From assembly GCA_028693445.1 (NCBI GenBank), contig JAQUVI010000005.1, forward strand, positions 1 through 64,000: 64,000 nucleotides of DNA, given 5' to 3'. Of this stretch, positions 26,224 to 40,195 are shown in pieces; the first letter of the stretch is position 1; each line of letters begins with the position of its first letter. The translations under genes and the position numbers were made by a program. The stretch comes from Candidatus Absconditabacteria bacterium. Its GTDB lineage: Bacteria; Patescibacteriota; Gracilibacteria; Absconditabacterales; Absconditicoccaceae. Below the pieces are notes generated by a model. That model saw only the letters and a list, made by a program, of their open reading frames with translations. It ran no database searches and had not been told where the DNA came from.

Positions 26224-27291
26224 ATGGCAGCAAGTTTTGATATCGAGCAGATTCTTACTCTTATCGAAAAAAATGTTAATATCTCAGATCTTCATCTTTC
26301 TGGTGGAGAAAGTATTGCTTATAGACTTAATGGTGAAGTAATAAGAGAAGAACAAGCATGAAAATTAAGTAATGAGAGTATGGAACTTATTGTTAGACAA
26401 CTTTTTGCTTGAAATCCTCAAAGATTTGATAAATTTTTGGGTGATAAAGAAGCTGATTTTGCTTATATTTCAAAATCAGGAATTCCTTATAGAGTAAATG
26501 CTTTCTTTAAAACAGGAAGGCTTGGTGTTGTAATGAGAAAAATCAACTGAACAGCTAAAAAACTAGAAGACTTGATGTTTGTAGATATAGCTGAAAGTGT
26601 TAAAAAAAACGTATTGAACCAAAAAAAATGATTATATCTTGTTACTGGTCCTACTGGATCTGGTAAATCTACATCACTTGTAGCTATGCTTGAAGAAATC
26701 AACAAAACTAGATCAGAAAATATGATTACTATTGAAGATCCTATTGAATTCGTTTTTAAACCACAAAAATGTATTATTTCTCAAAGAGAAATTGGTCATG
26801 ATACTTGGTCTTTTCCTAATGCGCTTAGAGCAGCAATGCGTGAAGATCCTGATATTATATTTGTGGGTGAGATTCGTGATAGAGAAACTGCTGAATCAGC
26901 TTTGAGTTTGGCAGAAACTGGTCACTTGGTATTTAGTACATTACATACAAATTCAGCTGCTAATACTGTAAATAGACTTATTTCATTTTTCCCTCCAGAA
27001 ATACAAGAAAGTGTTTGTGATAGATTAGCTACTTCATTGATTGGAGTACAATCACAAATGCTTGTAAAAAGTAAAATGGGAAGTAGGGTTTGAATTTATG
27101 AACTTATGCTTAATACAACATCTATAAGAAACAATATTAAAAAAAGAGAGATTGAACAACTTGATAATATTATAGAAACATCTTCTTTAATTGGTATGAT
27201 CAATCTTAAAAAATATTCACAAAGACTTATTGATAAACAAATTGTGGATCCAAAAGAACTGGATTGGTTGATTAAAGGTTCGTCGCTTTAG
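26224..27291 (+). CDS. pilT: PilT-like type IV pilus retraction ATPase
   Basis: 355 residues. N-terminal domain (NISDLHLSGGESIAYRLNGE) then Walker A GPTGSGKST near residue 140, the Asp box (IEDPIEFVFKP), Walker B (EDPDIIFVGEIRDRETAESA) and the His box ETGHLVFSTLHTNSAANTVN. PilT retracts type IV pili, driving twitching and DNA uptake; ComEC and a pilin are also in this window. Confidence 0.93.
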
Positions 27292-27344
27292 TATAAATTA
27301 GATATAATTATTTTATTAATCCATTTAAAAATTAACATTATGAA

Positions 27345-27530
27345 ATGACTGATACTATATTTGGTTATAAATGATGATGAAAACCAAAACCTCTTACAAA
27401 AAAAGAAATTGAACAAATGAAAAAAATTATGAAAAAAGTCCCAGTTATAAAAGCTAGAAATGATATATATCATGAATATGAAGAAAAAAATGCTGATAAA
27501 GAATTTGAAAACAAATTAAATAATTTATAG
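27345..27530 (+). CDS. Small charged protein, unknown
   Basis: 61 residues: MTDTIFGYKGGGKPKPLTKK then a Lys/Glu-rich helix. Three consecutive TGA codons make GGG. No family recognised. Between pilT and a coiled-coil gene on the same strand. Confidence 0.55.
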
Positions 27531-27542
27531 ATACACTAAAAC

Positions 27543-27586
27543 AAACTTCTCTTATGCTCTTCGATAAACTCAGGGCGACAAAGATA
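27543..27586. repeat. Family C type repeat
   Basis: AAACTTCTCTTATGCTCTTC then GATAAACTCAGGGCGACAAA; related to the TTGTCNCTCTGA / AAGAGCATAAGAG elements at 48848 and 62570. Confidence 0.4.
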
Positions 27587-27644
27587 ATATGTAATCTAAC
27601 TAATATTTATAACATTATATTTAATATTTAACATTATATTTAAA

Positions 27645-28055
27645 ATGGTTAATATTGAGCTTATCCAACAAAAATTACCTCAAGAATTACGAGAAATAGC
27701 CAAAAACTATACTATTTCTGATAATTTTTTGGAAACAATGTCGGATATTATTATATTAGTTTTACAATCAAAATCTTTGGATACTCAACAAGAAAAACAA
27801 TCTTGGTTTGATCTTTTACCATTAATGAATCAAGAACAAGTTGATAAATTACGTGATATTTTGACTAGAGAAAAACAAAAATTGGAAGAAATTGAAAAGA
27901 AATATGAACAAAAGAAAGAAGATGTTGTTAATAAATATGTACAAAAATATGATGAAAGTTCTTATCAAAACAAAATCGTACAATTAAAAGAAAATGAAGA
28001 AGCTCATAAAGAAAAAGAACATGAAGAAGCTGACGCTCTTTTAAATAATTTATAA
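27645..28055 (+). CDS. Coiled-coil protein, unknown
   Basis: 136 residues. A helical N-terminal part (ELIQQKLPQELREIAKNYTI, QEKQSWFDLLPLMNQEQVDK) followed by a long Lys/Glu-rich coiled coil (residues about 75-130). No glycines, so code use is uninformative. Cytoplasmic; it precedes two secretory membrane proteins on the same strand. Function unknown. Confidence 0.65.
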   Translation: MVNIELIQQKLPQELREIAKNYTISDNFLETMSDIIILVLQSKSLDTQQEKQSWFDLLPLMNQEQVDKLRDILTREKQKLEEIEKKYEQKKEDVVNKYVQKYDESSYQNKIVQLKENEEAHKEKEHEEADALLNNL

Positions 28056-28075
28056 TTTATAATTAATAATTTATA

Positions 28076-28714
28076 ATGTATAATTATGTTAAGAAAATTA
28101 TAGTCTGATTATTTACTTTTGTTTTATTATGAATTAATATAAGCAATACTTTTGCTGTTAGAGATGTTATGGATATTATGTTTCAACCAGCTAAATGATA
28201 TGAAAAAGTTATTGATCTTGGTAGTACAAAAAATGCTGTAGGTAATGAAGTTTTTAAAGAATCTACTAATGTTTGATTTAATGATAATTTTGGTAATTGA
28301 TGTTTTGTGAATAATCAACATATAGAACAATCTATTATTGAATCTCAAATGGATCAGGTTTGATTTCAATGAACAGAAAGAGAATTTTGTGAAAATGTTT
28401 TAGGTGGTGATTATGATATTAATACTCTTTGAGGTGAAACACAAGCTCCTTTGATTGTAAGAATAACTAAATTTTTACTTAGACTTACTATAGTTTTATC
28501 TATTACTATGGTTTTGTATAACGGTATACTTTGGGTAATAGAATCTGCTAAATGAGGTGATGTAAAAGATGCTAAAAACAATATTCTTTATATTGTTGGT
28601 GGGATTTTACTTGCTTTATCTAGTGTTGTAATTATAAATATTATTAGTTCTATAACATTAAGTAGTCTTAATATTAATGATATGCCAAATCAAAATATAA
28701 ATAACAATCAATAA
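28076..28714 (+). CDS. Secretory two-helix membrane protein, pilin-like
   Basis: 212 residues. Signal sequence (YVKKIIVGLFTFVLLGINIS), a soluble part with two Cys (GNGCFVNNQ, EFCENVLGGDYD), then two C-terminal membrane helices (LTIVLSITMVLYNGILWVIE; NILYIVGGILLALSSVVIII-like). The two-helix layout with a short basic loop (SAKGGDVKDAKNN) matches the next gene and TrbC/VirB2-type pilins with an added ectodomain. Chosen start ATG 28076 gives a four-residue lead to the signal. Confidence 0.6.
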
Positions 28715-28738
28715 TATATTTATCTTTTATAGAAAATA

Positions 28739-29116
28739 ATGATTAAAAAAATTATATTATGAATATTTGGTTTGTTTATGATAGGATCTTTTTTTCAACA
28801 ATCTTTTGCTATTACTGTTGAATTACCACGTGCTCAATGAAATCCTGATATAGCTGTGATTTGACCCGAACAAATTTCTGGTGATGAAACAACTTTTTTT
28901 AATACTATTCAATTAGTTAATAAATATTTATGGTTTTGACTTGGTGTTGTTTGTATGGTAGTATTGGTTTGGGGATGAATTCAATTAATTACAGCAAATG
29001 GTAATGATGAAAAAATGAAAAAAACAAATAAACTTTTAATGTGAGCTTTGATAGGTATTTTGATATCAATATTATCATATTCTGTAGTAAGATTAGTTGT
29101 AAATCTTTTTCAATAA
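28739..29116 (+). CDS. TrbC/VirB2-like small pilin candidate
   Basis: 125 residues. Signal peptide (KKIILGIFGLFMIGSFFQQS, cut near FAIT), short linker, helix 1 (YLWFGLGVVCMVVLVWGGIQ), basic loop NGNDEKMKKTNK, helix 2 (LLMGALIGILISILSYSVVR). This is the VirB2/TrbC topology, used as the pilin of type IV secretion, though no VirB4 or other T4SS gene is in the window. It follows a larger protein with the same two-helix end by 24 nt. Confidence 0.6.
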
Positions 29117-30223: not shown

Positions 30224-31315
30224 ATGAAAAATGTATCTAAATTTTTATTGGTTGTTTTATTGGCTGGAGCTAGTTATTTTTTTGGTATGGTTGTTTATGG
30301 TGCTTGTACTACAGTTCCAGGTATTGGTATTATTTGTGGTAATGGTGATGTTTGTAATGATGCTGGTTGTTTATGTAACTGAAGTACTATTTCTTTATGA
30401 GAAACTTGTACAAATATAATAGCCCCATCTACAGATGGTGTATTATGAACAACTAGTTATTGAGAAACTTGTTCTGATGGTGATTGATGTAATTGTAGTA
30501 GTCCTTCTTGAAATACAACTATTTCTTATTGAGATCAATGTACTTGGGATATTAGTTTACCAGTATTATCTGCTTGATCAGTTAATGTTGTAAATAGAAC
30601 AGCTACTTTTATTTTTAATTCTTCAAAAGCTTGAACAGTAAGTTATCAATGATCTTGTGGTAATTGATCTTTATCTACAGCTGTTGCTTGAGATAATACA
30701 ACTAATTTTATTAATTTAAGTAATAGTACTTATAGTAATTGTCAACTTAGAGTAACAGATAATTTAAATAATTCTAGTACATGGTTAAATATACCTTCAT
30801 TTACAGTAAATTATACTTGATGATGAACTAGTTGAGGTTGAAGTGTTTGATGATGATCAAGTTCAACAATAACAGAACCAACTTTTTTAAGTATTCTTAG
30901 TCAAATTTGAGTTACAGAAACATGATTTATTAATTTATTGGAAATTGTTAAAGAAGAAAAAAGTGTTGTTTATGAATATACACCACAATGAGTAAAAATC
31001 AGAATTTTTGTGCCAAAATATAGACAATATTTAATTAGAAAAACAATATTGAGTTTAAATAATAGTTTAACTAAAGCTATTAATAAAAAACTTTTGAGAG
31101 TAACAGATCCAAGTTATATGATAGAAAATTTTGAAAATTTAAACAATGATAGTAAAATTCTTGTTTATAAAGAAATATGAGCTATTACACATTTATATAA
31201 TGAATTTTTGTGAGTATTATATATAGTACTTGATATGAAACAAAAAGATTATTTACCTTTGGCAAAATATTATTTGGAAAATTATTTTAAAGAATTTATA
31301 AATTTTCAAAAATAG
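30224..31315 (+). CDS. Secreted Cys-rich protein, unknown
   Basis: 363 residues. Signal segment (VSKFLLVVLLAGASYFFGMV), then a Cys-rich N-half (CGNGDVCNDAGCLCNGSTIS, LGETC repeats at GETCTN, YGETCSDGDGCNCSS), an Ig-like stretch (SGSVNVVNRTATFIFNSS), a Gly-rich linker nearly all TGA (SGGSVGGGSSST region, about residues 190-215) and a helical C-terminus. The Cys motifs resemble those of the surface protein at 9011. Promoter and double terminator suggest a single-gene unit. Confidence 0.65.
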
Positions 31316-31398: not shown

Positions 31399-31539
31399 AC
31401 TTTTTTGGATTTTCTCTTGACTTTTATATTTAAATTGTTATAACAGCAGTATGAAAATGGGGTAGTTATAATTTATTATAAAAAACCTTTTTCATAATGA
31501 AGAAGTTAATTAACATTTAAACTAATAAACTAATTAAAT

Positions 31540-32448
31540 ATGAAAACAATGAAAACTGTTTTAATTTTTGTTTTGAGTTTTTTTACTATTTTTATAGTAA
31601 ATGCTCAAATGCCTTCAGCACAATTGTTGTTGAATGGTTCAGATGTTGGCCCTGAATATACAACATGTCGGGGTTCTATTATTTTGAGCACTGGTATAGG
31701 TGATGCAACAAGCACCTATTACTGGCAAAAAACTAACCAAACTGGTGTAACAACCGATTTGGGAACAACACCAACTATTTCTTTAACACCAGTTGAGGAT
31801 TTTGTAAAGTATGGTGTTTATGTAAACGATGGTGGAACTGTTTATTATGATACATTGTTACTTACGGTAAATAATTTACCAGAGGTGATTGTGTTAAATA
31901 ATACTACATCGGTTTGTTCTAGTTCGGATGTGATTATTAATGCAACCGAAAGTCCTCTTCCCAGTCATACCTATCAATGGTATGTTGATGGAGCGCTTTT
32001 AAGTAATGGTGGTTTTTATAGTGGTGTTACTACTTATCAATTAACTGTTACTGGAGATGTTTCATTAAGTGGAAAAAGGTATGAGTGTAGAGTAACCGCT
32101 TCTTACGGTTGTTCTGCTTATGCTAGAACTGCTGGTGGACAAGGGACTTTGTTGGTTGTTAATCCACTTCCATTGAACCAAACACCAACAGTAAATGTTC
32201 CAATTGTAAGTGGTACAGCAACAGTATGTGGTTTAACAACGGAAATTGTTATTGGTTTACAAGCAACTCAATCTAATTACATATATGAGTTGTATGATGC
32301 TGATACAGATGTTGTTATAAACACTGTTGTTAGTCCTGCGTCACCAGTTGACGGTGCTATACAATTTGCACCACAATTTGTGGATAGAAATTTTAGAATA
32401 CGGGTTTGGGATTCTACCCATACGTGTTCAACAATAATTAATCAATAA
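31540..32448 (+). CDS. Bacteroidota-like secreted Ig-type repeat protein
   Basis: 302 residues. Signal peptide (MKTVLIFVLSFFTIFIVNAQ), then Ig-like repeats (TCRGSIILSTGIGDATSTYY, ICSSS-like VCSSSDVIINATESPLPSHT, YQWYVDG). Style and composition match Bacteroidota T9SS/PKD-type proteins. By hand count about 24 Gly, all GGN, none TGA, unlike native genes. Its last 95 residues are a near copy of the C-terminus of the next gene. Ends in TAA. Confidence 0.8.
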   Translation: MKTMKTVLIFVLSFFTIFIVNAQMPSAQLLLNGSDVGPEYTTCRGSIILSTGIGDATSTYYWQKTNQTGVTTDLGTTPTISLTPVEDFVKYGVYVNDGGTVYYDTLLLTVNNLPEVIVLNNTTSVCSSSDVIINATESPLPSHTYQWYVDGALLSNGGFYSGVTTYQLTVTGDVSLSGKRYECRVTASYGCSAYARTAGGQGTLLVVNPLPLNQTPTVNVPIVSGTATVCGLTTEIVIGLQATQSNYIYELYDADTDVVINTVVSPASPVDGAIQFAPQFVDRNFRIRVWDSTHTCSTIINQ

Positions 32449-32474
32449 ATAAAAAAAATTAAAACTATACGAAC

Positions 32475-33839
32475 ATGAAAAAGATTATCTTAAGTTTAAG
32501 TTTTTTGTTTATGTCCTTCGTTGTTTTTTCTCAGACACCTTGGACATTAACAACTGTACATCGAAGTTTACCAGTTGCAGATGCTGGTAGTGATCAAACT
32601 ATAGCTATAGGTGGTTCTATACAAATTGGAACCCCTGCAGTTGGTGGAAATACTTATGGTTGGACAAGCGATCCTGTTGGTTTTACATCTACCGATGCGC
32701 AACCAATAGTTAACCCTGTTGCCTCTACTTATTATTATTTAGTGGTTGATAATGGAACTTGTTTTGCCTACGATACAGTTCGAGTTAATGTTACTGGAAC
32801 ACCACTTGCTTTTACAAGCAATGCTGTTAATCCAGGAACCGTTTGTTCAGGAACTGAATCAATATTAAGTGTTGTTCCAGAAGGTGGAACTGGTGTGTAT
32901 ACGTTTAGTTGGAATATTGTTGGTGATCCAACAGTTCTTTCAATTAATGATACATTAATAGTTGCTCCTACATCATTGGTAGTTAATACCTTTAGGTATA
33001 ATATTACCTTGAGTGATGGTGTTACTACTATTAATGATACACTTGATCTTGTTGTTAATCCTTTACCAGTTGCAGATGCTGGTAGTGATCAAACTATAGC
33101 TATAGGTGGTTCTATACAAATTGGAACCCCTGCAGTTGGTGGAAATACTTATGGTTGGACAAGCGATCCTGTTGGTTTTACATCTACCGATGCGCAACCA
33201 ATAGTTAACCCTGTTGCCTCTACTTATTATTATTTAGTGGTTGATAATGGAACTTGTTTTGCCTACGATACAGTTCGAGTTAATGTTACTGGAACACCAC
33301 TTGCTTTTACAAGCAATGCTGTTAATCCAGGAACCGTTTGTTCAGGAACTGAATCAATATTAAGTGTTGTTCCAGAAGGTGGAACTGGTGTGTATACGTT
33401 TAGTTGGAATATTGTTGGTGATCCAACAGTTCTTTCAATTAATGATACATTAATAGTTGCTCCTACATCATTGGTAGTTAATACCTTTAGGTATAATATT
33501 ACCTTGAGTGATGGTGTTACTACTATTAATGATACACTTGATCTTATTGTTAATCCTTTACCATTGAATCAAATACCGACTGTAAATGTTCCTGTTGTTG
33601 CTGATACAGCAACAGTATGTGGTTTAACAACGGAAATTGTTATTGGTTTACAAGCAACTCAATCTAATTATATATATGAGTTGTACGATGCCGATACTGA
33701 TGAAATTGTTGACACAGTTACTAGTCCAGCATTACCAGTTGATGGTGCTATACAATTTGCACCACAGTTTGTGGATAGGACTTTTGGAATACGGGTTTGG
33801 GATTCTACTCGTACGTGTTTTTTGATAGTTCACAATTAA
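32475..33839 (+). CDS. Bacteroidota-like secreted repeat protein with duplicated module
   Basis: 454 residues. Signal peptide (KKIILSLSFLFMSFVVFSQT), then two consecutive 165-residue modules starting VADAGSDQTIAIGGSIQIGT (PKD/Ig-like, with CSGTESILSVVPEGGTG), then the C-terminal domain shared with the upstream gene (NPLPLNQIPTVNVPVVADTA). About 38 Gly by hand count, none TGA. No in-frame TGA at all, so it translates the same in either code. Confidence 0.8.
   Translation: MKKIILSLSFLFMSFVVFSQTPWTLTTVHRSLPVADAGSDQTIAIGGSIQIGTPAVGGNTYGWTSDPVGFTSTDAQPIVNPVASTYYYLVVDNGTCFAYDTVRVNVTGTPLAFTSNAVNPGTVCSGTESILSVVPEGGTGVYTFSWNIVGDPTVLSINDTLIVAPTSLVVNTFRYNITLSDGVTTINDTLDLVVNPLPVADAGSDQTIAIGGSIQIGTPAVGGNTYGWTSDPVGFTSTDAQPIVNPVASTYYYLVVDNGTCFAYDTVRVNVTGTPLAFTSNAVNPGTVCSGTESILSVVPEGGTGVYTFSWNIVGDPTVLSINDTLIVAPTSLVVNTFRYNITLSDGVTTINDTLDLIVNPLPLNQIPTVNVPVVADTATVCGLTTEIVIGLQATQSNYIYELYDADTDEIVDTVTSPALPVDGAIQFAPQFVDRTFGIRVWDSTRTCFLIVHN
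32571..33560 (+). repeat. 495-bp tandem duplication
   Basis: Unit 32571-33065 repeats at 33066-33560 with almost no differences seen (one G/A change near the end, CTTGTTGTT versus CTTATTGTT). The period is 165 codons. Very recent duplication, or a place where assembly should be checked. Confidence 0.85.
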
Positions 33840-33849
33840 AACAATAATT

Positions 33850-35196
33850 ATGTGGAAAAGAATAGTATTATTTCTTGGTTTGTTCTTTTTGTTTGTAATA
33901 AACCCAGTTATGATTTATTCACAAGATCCACCAAATTATTGGAGACTTGTGACTAATCATATTGAAAATCCAGTAGTTAGTGCTGGACCGGATTTAATCC
34001 TTGCATCTGGGCAAACTCAGGTGCAACCTCAAGCCACGATTAACGATGCGACAGCATCTATATTGTGGAATGGGCCAGAGAATTTTTCATCTAATGTTTT
34101 ACGACCATGGGTTTCTGATCTTGGGACGTATGAGATTACCGCCACAAACTCTTTTGGTTGCTCGTCGAGTGATCAAATGGAATTGCGGGAGGCTCAATTA
34201 GGTGATACGTTGACTTATCAACTTCCAGCTTTTTGTCTTGGAGAAGATCCAGTTTGGTTGGATGAATATATTTCATATTCTACCGAAGGAAGTTTTTTCG
34301 GACAAGATGTGGTTGGAAGGTATTTCTACCCAAATACAGCGGGAATTCATAATATATATTGGGTAATGGAAGGAGATACAATTCCTTTTCAACCTGTGTA
34401 TGTTTTAGAATCACCCACAGTAAACATACCTAACGATTCTATATTTAGGTGTGAGGGGCAAAATGGAATACTTTATGCTCAAGGTAATGCAACTAATTGG
34501 ATATGGTCAACTTTGACAAGTCCTGATGATGTGTTATCTACAGATCAAGTTTATTCTGTTTCAGTTAATCAACCAATGTATTATCTTTTGACAGGTGCTT
34601 TGGTTTATGAAACAGAACAAAAAACTTGTTCAGCAAAGGATTCTGTATTTGTATCTCCTATCTCTGCTAAATTTACTTATGAGCAGATGGTTATAGATAC
34701 AACTTATGGAACAATCTATGGTTCTTATGTTAAGTTTATACCTGATTACAAAGATGGAAATTCTTATTTTTGGAATTTGGGTATATCTGGAGTTACTTCA
34801 ACTGAAGTTTATCCTGATTATAATTATGGTGCTCCAGTTGGTACAGTTATTGTTACATTAAGTATGAGTTCTATGTGTGGGAATCATTCTCACACAGAAA
34901 ACATTTACATTAATTATGTAACAGGTATCGATAATTTAATAAAGGATGATGATGTTAAGTTGTATCCTAATCCTGTTTCAGGAGATGTTGTCAACCTTGA
35001 TTTTGGAGACAAACGCGTCTCTAGAGTTGAGGTATGGGATATGATTGGTCGACAGTTACATGTCGATCAGTATCATCATACTGAATTTATCTTCCAAACC
35101 CAGATTGACGTTTCGTCATATAGACCTGGGTTTTACATAGTAAGGGTGTTTGGTAAAGAGGGAGGTATAATCCCTATTAAATTTATCAAACAATAA
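33850..35196 (+). CDS. Bacteroidota-like protein with T9SS type A sorting domain
   Basis: 448 residues. Signal peptide (KRIVLFLGLFFLFVINPVMI), Ig/PKD-like strands (ILASGQTQVQPQATINDATA), then a C-terminal type IX secretion signal: VKLYPNPVSGDVVNLDFGDK, VEVWDMIGRQLHVDQ, IDVSSYRPGFYIVRVFGKEG. This domain directs export in Bacteroidota; no T9SS gene is in the window and the phylum assumed here is not known for it. About 33 Gly, none TGA. The terminator at 35216 follows. Confidence 0.85.
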   Translation: MWKRIVLFLGLFFLFVINPVMIYSQDPPNYWRLVTNHIENPVVSAGPDLILASGQTQVQPQATINDATASILWNGPENFSSNVLRPWVSDLGTYEITATNSFGCSSSDQMELREAQLGDTLTYQLPAFCLGEDPVWLDEYISYSTEGSFFGQDVVGRYFYPNTAGIHNIYWVMEGDTIPFQPVYVLESPTVNIPNDSIFRCEGQNGILYAQGNATNWIWSTLTSPDDVLSTDQVYSVSVNQPMYYLLTGALVYETEQKTCSAKDSVFVSPISAKFTYEQMVIDTTYGTIYGSYVKFIPDYKDGNSYFWNLGISGVTSTEVYPDYNYGAPVGTVIVTLSMSSMCGNHSHTENIYINYVTGIDNLIKDDDVKLYPNPVSGDVVNLDFGDKRVSRVEVWDMIGRQLHVDQYHHTEFIFQTQIDVSSYRPGFYIVRVFGKEGGIIPIKFIKQ

Positions 35197-35215: not shown

Positions 35216-35250
35216 TAAAAAGCCCTTCGGTTTACCGGGGGCTTTTTTTG
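35216..35250 (+). terminator. Strong terminator
   Basis: AAAAAGCCC / GGGGGCTTTTTTT stem with loop TTCGGTTTACC. Confidence 0.85.
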
Positions 35251-35263
35251 TAAATTATAAAAA

Positions 35264-35296
35264 TTGGATTGCCACACTATCGCTCGCAATGACATT
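35264..35296. repeat. Palindromic repeat family A
   Basis: GGATTGCCACACTATCGCTC then GCAATGAC. It marks native genome sequence right after the Bacteroidota-like block. Confidence 0.55.
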
Positions 35297-35325: not shown

Positions 35326-36015
35326 TTATTTTTCGAAATTAGTAAGGACACTACAAAGTTCTACTTTTCATACTCAATTTCATATATATTCTACTATTGA
35401 ACAAAAGCGAAATTCTTTGGCGGAGGGGGTAGAACAGTTAGAATCTCAACCTGTAGGACAGTTAATTAATTCTCCGCCAATCTGAGTCGATTCTTTTTTG
35501 AAAACTCACAATCATTTTATTTGTCTAAAAAAGTTTCATTCATTGCTTTGTGGTAATTCTCCTGGGCAAGCTTTCCAAACTCATCAGGTTTCACAAAGAG
35601 AATATTGCAAATTTCCAGAATTATTTATTCATAGATCAGTATTTAAGTCTTCATTAATACCGCTTGCATAAAAGTATTGTTGTCCACTGATAGTAGTAGT
35701 CAGAATTATATAATTTCCTGATCCAAACCAAAAATCATTATTTAATCAGTCTCATCATTCATCAATTGATGGGTTTAATTTTAATCGTGTTGTTTCTTTG
35801 TCTCAAGCTCGTTTTTGTCGATTTGTGTTTCTTATATTTATAACTTGTTCCAATCATTCTCTAGCTAAATTGATAGCGATAATTTTTTGTCTGGTTTTTT
35901 GTAAATAAGTGTTGCTATTTCAAAGTGCTTGTATTACAGTTATAAGTCAAAGTCATACCAATACAACAATAACAATGACTTCCATAATAGTAAATCATTT
36001 TTTAATATTTTTCAT
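35326..36015 (-). CDS. Type IV pilin-like protein
   Basis: 229 residues. MKNIKKGFTIMEVIVIVVLV is a prepilin signal: basic leader, cleavage after Gly7, Phe+1... Glu+5 in the FTIMEV form, then the hydrophobic N-helix and AINLAREGLEQVINIRN. A C-terminal globular part holds two Cys pairs (SLCETGGVWKACPG, CPTGGDSNCST). The key cleavage-site glycine is a TGA. Minor pseudopilin or major pilin cannot be told; fits with PilT and ComEC. Confidence 0.85.
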
Positions 36016-36106
36016 ATTATGTATTTTCTGTTTGAAAATAAAAAACACAATAGTATAGTAGTGATTGGTTTTGAACTTGCAATACTTTTAAATCTTGTTG
36101 TCAAAA

Positions 36107-40121: not shown

Positions 40122-40195
40122 GCGGATATGATGTAATTGGTGTAGCATAGCAGACTTCAGCTCTGTTCGTACGGGTTCGAGTCCCGTTATCCGCT
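40122..40195 (+). tRNA. tRNA-Gly(UCA), decoder of UGA as glycine
   Basis: 74 nt: acceptor GCGGATA/TATCCGC, anticodon stem GCAGA/TCTGT with loop CTTCAGC, so anticodon UCA at 40157-40159; T-arm ACGGG-TTCGAGT-CCCGT. Anticodon UCA pairs with UGA. G1-C72, C2-G71 and U73 are bacterial tRNA-Gly identity features shared with tRNA-Gly(GCC) here; a tRNA-Trp would have G73 and anticodon CCA. This is the expected partner of the table 25 code. No CCA is encoded. Confidence 0.93.

Follow-up and report, generated by a model that had tools for sequence, protein, structure and literature searches.

We examined a block of three consecutive genes at positions 31540-35196 of a 64,000-nucleotide stretch of contig JAQUVI010000005.1 (the window), from a Candidatus Absconditabacteria bacterium that reads TGA as glycine (genetic code 25). 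The genes encode exported proteins, the last of which is a type A cargo of the Bacteroidota type IX secretion system (T9SS), and it is surprising that they remain free of TGA despite their age. Judging from the sequences, the block on balance probably belongs to a small chromosomal gene class of this SR1 epibiont that selection keeps legible to a diderm host using the standard code. By an equally probable but indirect argument, translation by the host would be the reason for the avoidance of TGA, a step that explains the avoidance best.

Glycine codons of the block and of its orthologs

All three open reading frames (ORFs) are open in both codes and stop at TAA, and none of their 95 glycine codons (24, 38 and 33) is TGA. 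In the genome of the window (G000), TGA makes up 0.447 of the glycine codons over 491 called genes, where gene calls are simple ORF calls and genome-wide counts are based on sampled stretches. At this local share, the probability of zero TGA is 7e-7, 2e-10 and 3e-9 for genes 1, 2 and 3, respectively. A first-pass annotation, made from the letters of the window, had described three secreted proteins in a row with a type A sorting domain on the last, about 95 glycines without TGA, TAA stops only, native flanks rich in TGA and genes reading identically in both codes; all of this agrees with our counts (Table 1). Gene 2 matches Ig_7/PF19081 (34.4, cut-off 27.3), and gene 1 comes close to Ig models, below threshold. 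Gene 3 scores 37.2 bits with TIGR04183 (cut-off 23 bits) and 36.5 with PF18962 (cut-off 27); profile search found no sorting domain in genes 1 and 2, which leaves gene 3 as the sole carrier in the block. The predicted structure of gene 3 has a mean predicted local distance difference test score of 41.6, with the sorting domain alone near 70, and because of this low mean no fold search was made.

Table 1 Features of the block and its surroundings. Positions are those of the window.
Feature	Position	Strand	Remarks
Native flanking gene	30224..31315	+	25/37 Gly codons are TGA; G044 ortholog at the same place
Promoter candidate TTGACT-N16-TATAAC	31417..31444	+	Conserved in G044, as are ~200 bp of upstream DNA around it
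A-rich leader of gene 1	31505..31539	+	Bacteroidota-like translation initiation region by sequence; no Shine-Dalgarno
Gene 1	31540..32448	+	Exported Ig-like protein, 302 aa; signal peptide end NA/Q; 0/24 Gly codons are TGA
Gene 2	32475..33839	+	Exported Ig_7/SprB-like protein, 454 aa; signal peptide end FS/Q; 0/38 Gly codons are TGA
Exact tandem duplication inside gene 2	32567..33361	+	Two copies (32567-33061; from 33062), spacing 495 nt, 100% over 300 nt compared
Gene 3	33850..35196	+	T9SS type A cargo, 448 aa; signal peptide end YS/Q; 0/33 Gly codons are TGA
C-terminal T9SS type A sorting domain of gene 3	34960..35193	+	Residues 371-448; PF18962 and TIGR04183 above cut-off
Terminator of block	35218..35248	+	Kept in G044 and G045
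Native flanking prepilin-like gene	35326..36048	-	19/28 Gly codons are TGA; G044 and G045 orthologs at the same place
tRNA, anticodon TCA	40122..40195	+	Bacterial model lists tRNA-SeC; presumably the code-25 tRNA-Gly(UCA), an identity taken from the code

We then compared G000 with its congener G044, the closed SR1 genome RAAC1_SR1_1 (CP006913.1), using reciprocal-best pairs from sampled stretches of both (125 pairs, 2457 shared glycine sites). At 49% of these sites TGA is present in at least one of the two genomes. Sixty pairs have at least 14 shared glycine sites, and four of them are free of TGA: an SprB-repeat/CHU_C protein (53 sites), PorP/SprF (29), gene 3 (22) and a PD40 protein (14). 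Above these four the shares begin at 0.11, and the median is 0.47. All four are Bacteroidota-type exported proteins, and those other than gene 3 form one operon (L153 7665-12479; L206/L150) in a collinear segment. Fitting a two-state model to the native pairs, we obtained 0.163 TGA per glycine codon on each branch if a gene lacked TGA when the species separated. This crude neutral model predicts about 31 TGA for the block alone (P ~1e-15 for none) and about 72 for the two operons together, where none is found as a sense codon (P ~7e-35). The pattern is repeated in other genera by the pairs G037/G043 (44 shared sites) and G008/G009 (15), whose syntenic neighbours carry TGA, and by two further pairs with 30 and 22 shared sites for which synteny is not established.

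Where T9SS genes of the family do have a lone TGA, it often coincides exactly with the sorting domain's end (G014 contigs C15 and C8, G007 C8, and G025 for type B). In G000 the end of the SprF gene overlaps the next gene through an ATGA, and in G009 the first TGA of SprF comes where the protein naturally ends. Reading these TGA in code 25 gives the proteins odd tails. A search for RF2 (prfB) in SR1 genomes returned only matches below cut-off, as code 25 predicts.

TGA could also be avoided in very highly expressed genes if the tRNA that reads UGA were slow or scarce. EF-Tu (L183-L187) is TGA-free in G044 (0/37) and G045, in G000 the ribosomal proteins together with EF-Tu have 29/123 TGA, below the genome mean of 0.45, and a strong-looking promoter often precedes TGA-free operons. 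However, EF-Tu has 7/37 TGA in G000 and 18/38 in G047, yet the exported genes of G000 have no sense TGA; thus EF-Tu and the ribosomal proteins of G000 reject expression as the whole cause in that genome. The other codons of TGA-free genes in this genus are native-like and off the high-expression set, and expression leaves their start regions, the use of TGA as stop and their sorting signals unexplained. We consider this explanation improbable.

Age of the block and alternative origins

G044 and a third species of the genus (G045, whose contig ends inside the block) have the block at the same locus, and the genes next to it are orthologs of its neighbours in G000. The identity of gene 3 to its ortholog is 39% for G044 and 33% for G045, and TGA is missing from all three copies. 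Outside glycine, the GC content at third codon positions (GC3) is 0.14-0.21 in the block and 0.14-0.25 over both TGA-free operons, compared to 0.174 +/- 0.059 in native genes and 0.364 in a Bacteroidota sample. The four-fold synonymous divergence of TGA-free genes matches that of native genes. CGA and CGG arginine codons were considered as a foreign marker and dropped, as they are present in native genes too. Taken together, the TGA-free genes are very probably old, already occupied their loci before the genus began to diversify, and TGA has been kept out of them.

The first-pass annotation had proposed either a recent transfer or a chimeric assembly, and neither fared well. One recent transfer of genes that came from a Bacteroidota host and have yet to adapt to code 25 would account for the lack of TGA and for an overall GC content of 0.35-0.36 in the block vs about 0.28 in its surroundings. 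However, the locus is occupied in close relatives by TGA-free syntenic orthologs in three species, their synonymous divergence is native-like, the codon usage outside glycine is not foreign, and the expected TGA have not accumulated since the split. That annotation had looked to homologues with TGA in other code-25 genomes as an argument against recent transfer; the syntenic orthologs have none. A single recent transfer is therefore very improbable, and is refuted unless the copies were replaced later. As for a chimera with a Bacteroidota genome, G000 is a draft assembly (11 contigs, estimated contamination 6.15%); but the same locus and flanks are seen in the closed CP006913.1 and in a third species (UBA5124), promoters are conserved across the supposed junction, and the sorting domain occurs in 48 of the 353 genomes of the class. 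On contigs C11 and C7, G000 has another two T9SS type A genes free of TGA, each standing alone among native genes. We give a chimera almost no credence.

The main rival is recurrent re-acquisition, in which the epibiont would again and again take up DNA of its Bacteroidota host, whose genes replace or recombine with resident copies at fixed expression sites and so resets TGA to zero. The repertoire is indeed patchy and diverse, start regions and stops are of Bacteroidota type, and members of the family carry comEC (PMC13059738). On the other hand, SprF and SprB of G000 and G044 (77-78% and 65% identical, respectively) are collinear orthologs, and their four-fold sites have diverged about as much as those of native genes. 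In a tree with long branches, the two SprF are sisters outside the sampled Bacteroidota, the best member of which is 33% identical, and no close Bacteroidota source of SprF was found in the sample. A full-length relative of gene 3 was not found in the Bacteroidota sample searched either. Native-like codon usage, and leaders and promoters conserved along with the genes, also speak against re-acquisition, and we regard it as rather unlikely.

Several observations weigh against host translation as the cause, some of which re-acquisition would accommodate. Genes 1 and 2 are just 24-27% identical to their G044 counterparts. In two species, L005 (7420-9935) and L037 (8067-10010) share a locus and a conserved promoter and carry T9SS proteins that are not detectably homologous, a swap that looks like replacement. 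GC3 is raised in several such genes of other genera, which may be recent; both this and the swap count in favour of re-acquisition. The TGA-free EF-Tu of G044 and G045 implies that expression can also lower TGA. Certain sorting-domain genes have sense TGA (3/30 in G002) or are rich in it (G037, G020, G008). Also, the TGA-free genes of another genome of the family (G003, below) could simply be recent transfers.

Start regions, promoters and export signals

The start regions of TGA-free genes differ from those of native genes. The frequency of A at -14 to -11 is 0.79 in this genus and 0.71 elsewhere vs 0.38 in native genes, and at -6 it is 0.78 and 0.83, respectively, vs 0.34. Native leaders are U-rich in G000 and G044. 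The A-rich pattern is the one measured in Flavobacterium johnsoniae (PMC6847099). A start-region model trained on other genera finds zero-TGA genes in G000 and G044 far above expectation, and its picks include small proteins with and without signal peptides. Shine-Dalgarno sequences are nearly absent from the native genes of G000, G044 and G003 (12/443; 1/210 in G003); as neither native nor TGA-free genes of this genus use them, they were dropped as a class marker.

Transcription signals look native. The promoter candidate of the block, missing from a generic scan list because its -10 ends in C, lies together with GTTAATTAACA in the upstream DNA conserved between G000 and G044, and the 3' end of gene 3 is similar to its ortholog at the DNA level past the stop and into the terminator. 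A TTGACW-TATAAT type promoter (strict pattern) precedes 6 of the 12 TGA-free operons vs 15/269 native; the TTGACW type is likewise present in front of certain native genes and of TGA-free genes in G003. As a class marker this promoter alone is not significant with a strict TGA cut, and the Bacteroidota promoter (-7) element TAnnTTTG, present in 1 of the 12 operons, is unsupported. Native-looking transcription combined with foreign-looking translation would point to the message, and not DNA, as the delivered item.

By sequence and a simple hydrophobicity heuristic, all three block proteins have a signal peptide followed by Gln, that of gene 3 being a Sec signal peptide. With the same heuristic, Gln follows the signal peptide in 29 of 39 TGA-free proteins compared to 30 of 128 native signal-peptide-like proteins, as in the Q-rule of Bacteroidetes (PMC5837995). 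Two TGA-free lipoproteins begin C-E-K-E-E-I (L157) and C-Q-K-E-D-V (L148), and both fit the lipoprotein export signal C-X-K-(D/E)2-X (PMC5080379). The class has the sorting signals of Bacteroidota T9SS cargo, namely type A (TIGR04183) and type B (TIGR04131) above curated cut-offs, the latter with PorP/SprF (TIGR03519). Unlike in Bacteroidota, they are encoded here by a cell whose genome reads TGA as glycine and in which SprA and BamA were not found: SprA_N was not seen in G000, G044, G045 and four relatives (9/9 Bacteroidota controls positive), nor Omp85/BamA in SR1 cells (controls positive). The T9SS partner barrel thus has no evident place in the epibiont's own envelope. In the literature searched, we found no paper that joins Absconditabacteria or Gracilibacteria with T9SS.

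The TGA-free genes combine two features expected of host-translated genes, namely legibility in the host code over evolutionary time and an initiation region of host type. It is possible, though we put it forward tentatively, that the epibiont transcribes these genes, that the host translates the delivered messages, that the host surface becomes decorated with parasite-encoded proteins, and that start signals switch with the type of host (A-rich for Bacteroidota, Shine-Dalgarno for a host that uses it). Transcription would take place in the epibiont from its own promoter type, and the message (less likely DNA) would pass, where the two cells touch, to a Bacteroidota host. After translation on host ribosomes, the products would be placed on the host surface by the host's own Sec, signal peptidase, T9SS and lipoprotein export. 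There they might hold the epibiont in place, label the host as taken or keep rivals off; these roles are guesses, and so is any carrier.

Agrobacterium T-DNA is a known case of genes borne by one organism with the expression signals of another. The TGA-free genes carried by the epibiont are similarly written with another organism's signals; in contrast to T-DNA, the step would be from bacterium to bacterium, no transfer borders are seen and the promoters are epibiont-like. We know of no prior description of nucleic acid transfer from epibiont to host with translation there. If true, nucleic acid would move from epibiont to host and be translated in it, a new mechanism by which one bacterium runs genes in another, and the cellular genome would be bilingual, with most genes in code 25 and a few in the code and start dialect of another phylum. 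On a long-standing open question, the host of an uncultured Patescibacterium could then be named, and the genes used inside it listed, from sequence only. Even under re-acquisition the genes would record the host phylum.

Code-11-compatible phages of Gracilibacteria and Absconditabacteria also lack in-frame TGA, and a wider host range was suggested for them by the authors (PMC10746230). Like the block, they are TGA-free genes in a code-25 cell that are legible in both codes; unlike them, the genes here are the cell's own chromosomal, syntenic genes for exported proteins, with no phage. A candidate conduit is the type IV secretion system (T4SS) of Patescibacteria, most clusters of which have no relaxase (PMC12102498). 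A VirB4-like ATPase is present in G000, G044, G045 and G003, and the distance from the block to a T4SS pilin is ~2.4 kb. A PilT-like ATPase and the T4SS pilin (PF18895) are located at 26224-29116 of the window, just upstream of the block, and a T9SS gene of another genus (G024, L044) likewise has homologs of the cluster next to it.

Further TGA-free genes and minor features

Beside the block, the two single genes and the SprB/SprF operon of G000, most genomes of the family have the T9SS domain, with 1-6 copies each and nearly all frames TGA-free, and loci around 40 places repeat the TGA-free pattern. G003, a closed genome of the same family in which TGA is 69% of glycine codons, has no T9SS domains. 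Its TGA-free genes encode a c-type cytochrome, a lipoprotein and prepilin-like proteins, and their natural starts have Shine-Dalgarno sequences (AGGAGG, AGGAG, GGAG) vs 1 of 210 native genes. The hosts of described members of the family are gammaproteobacteria (PMC13059738), and G003 may or may not be one of these species.

Some TGA-free genes have no export signals. A PyrE-like phosphoribosyltransferase and a deoxyhypusine-synthase-like gene (L163 15408-16070 and L148 7553-8686, respectively) would, judging by their sequences, be either recent transfers or further class members. Many small TGA-free genes with A-rich starts in G000 and G044 stretches (L131-L170), some without signal peptide, may be further members. 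Sorting-domain-like modules are also seen on a few TGA-rich proteins (L065, L068, L055 10493-11122; G020, G037, G008), which are perhaps domesticated. Stretch L061 (G012 C55) is nearly TGA-free throughout, with repeated endonuclease-like genes, and is a standard-code phage or a contaminant contig.

Within the block, the 3' parts of genes 1 and 2 (32156-32455 and 33547-33846) are 84% identical; this shared part and the duplication in gene 2 are recent internal growth of the block. Short GC-richer intergenic inserts that look like dispersed repeats occur at 35266-35294 of the window (GGATTGCCACACTATCGCTCGCAATGACA) and at ~7470-7600 of L005 (CGGGAATGACA-type), and are not in G044 at the same place.

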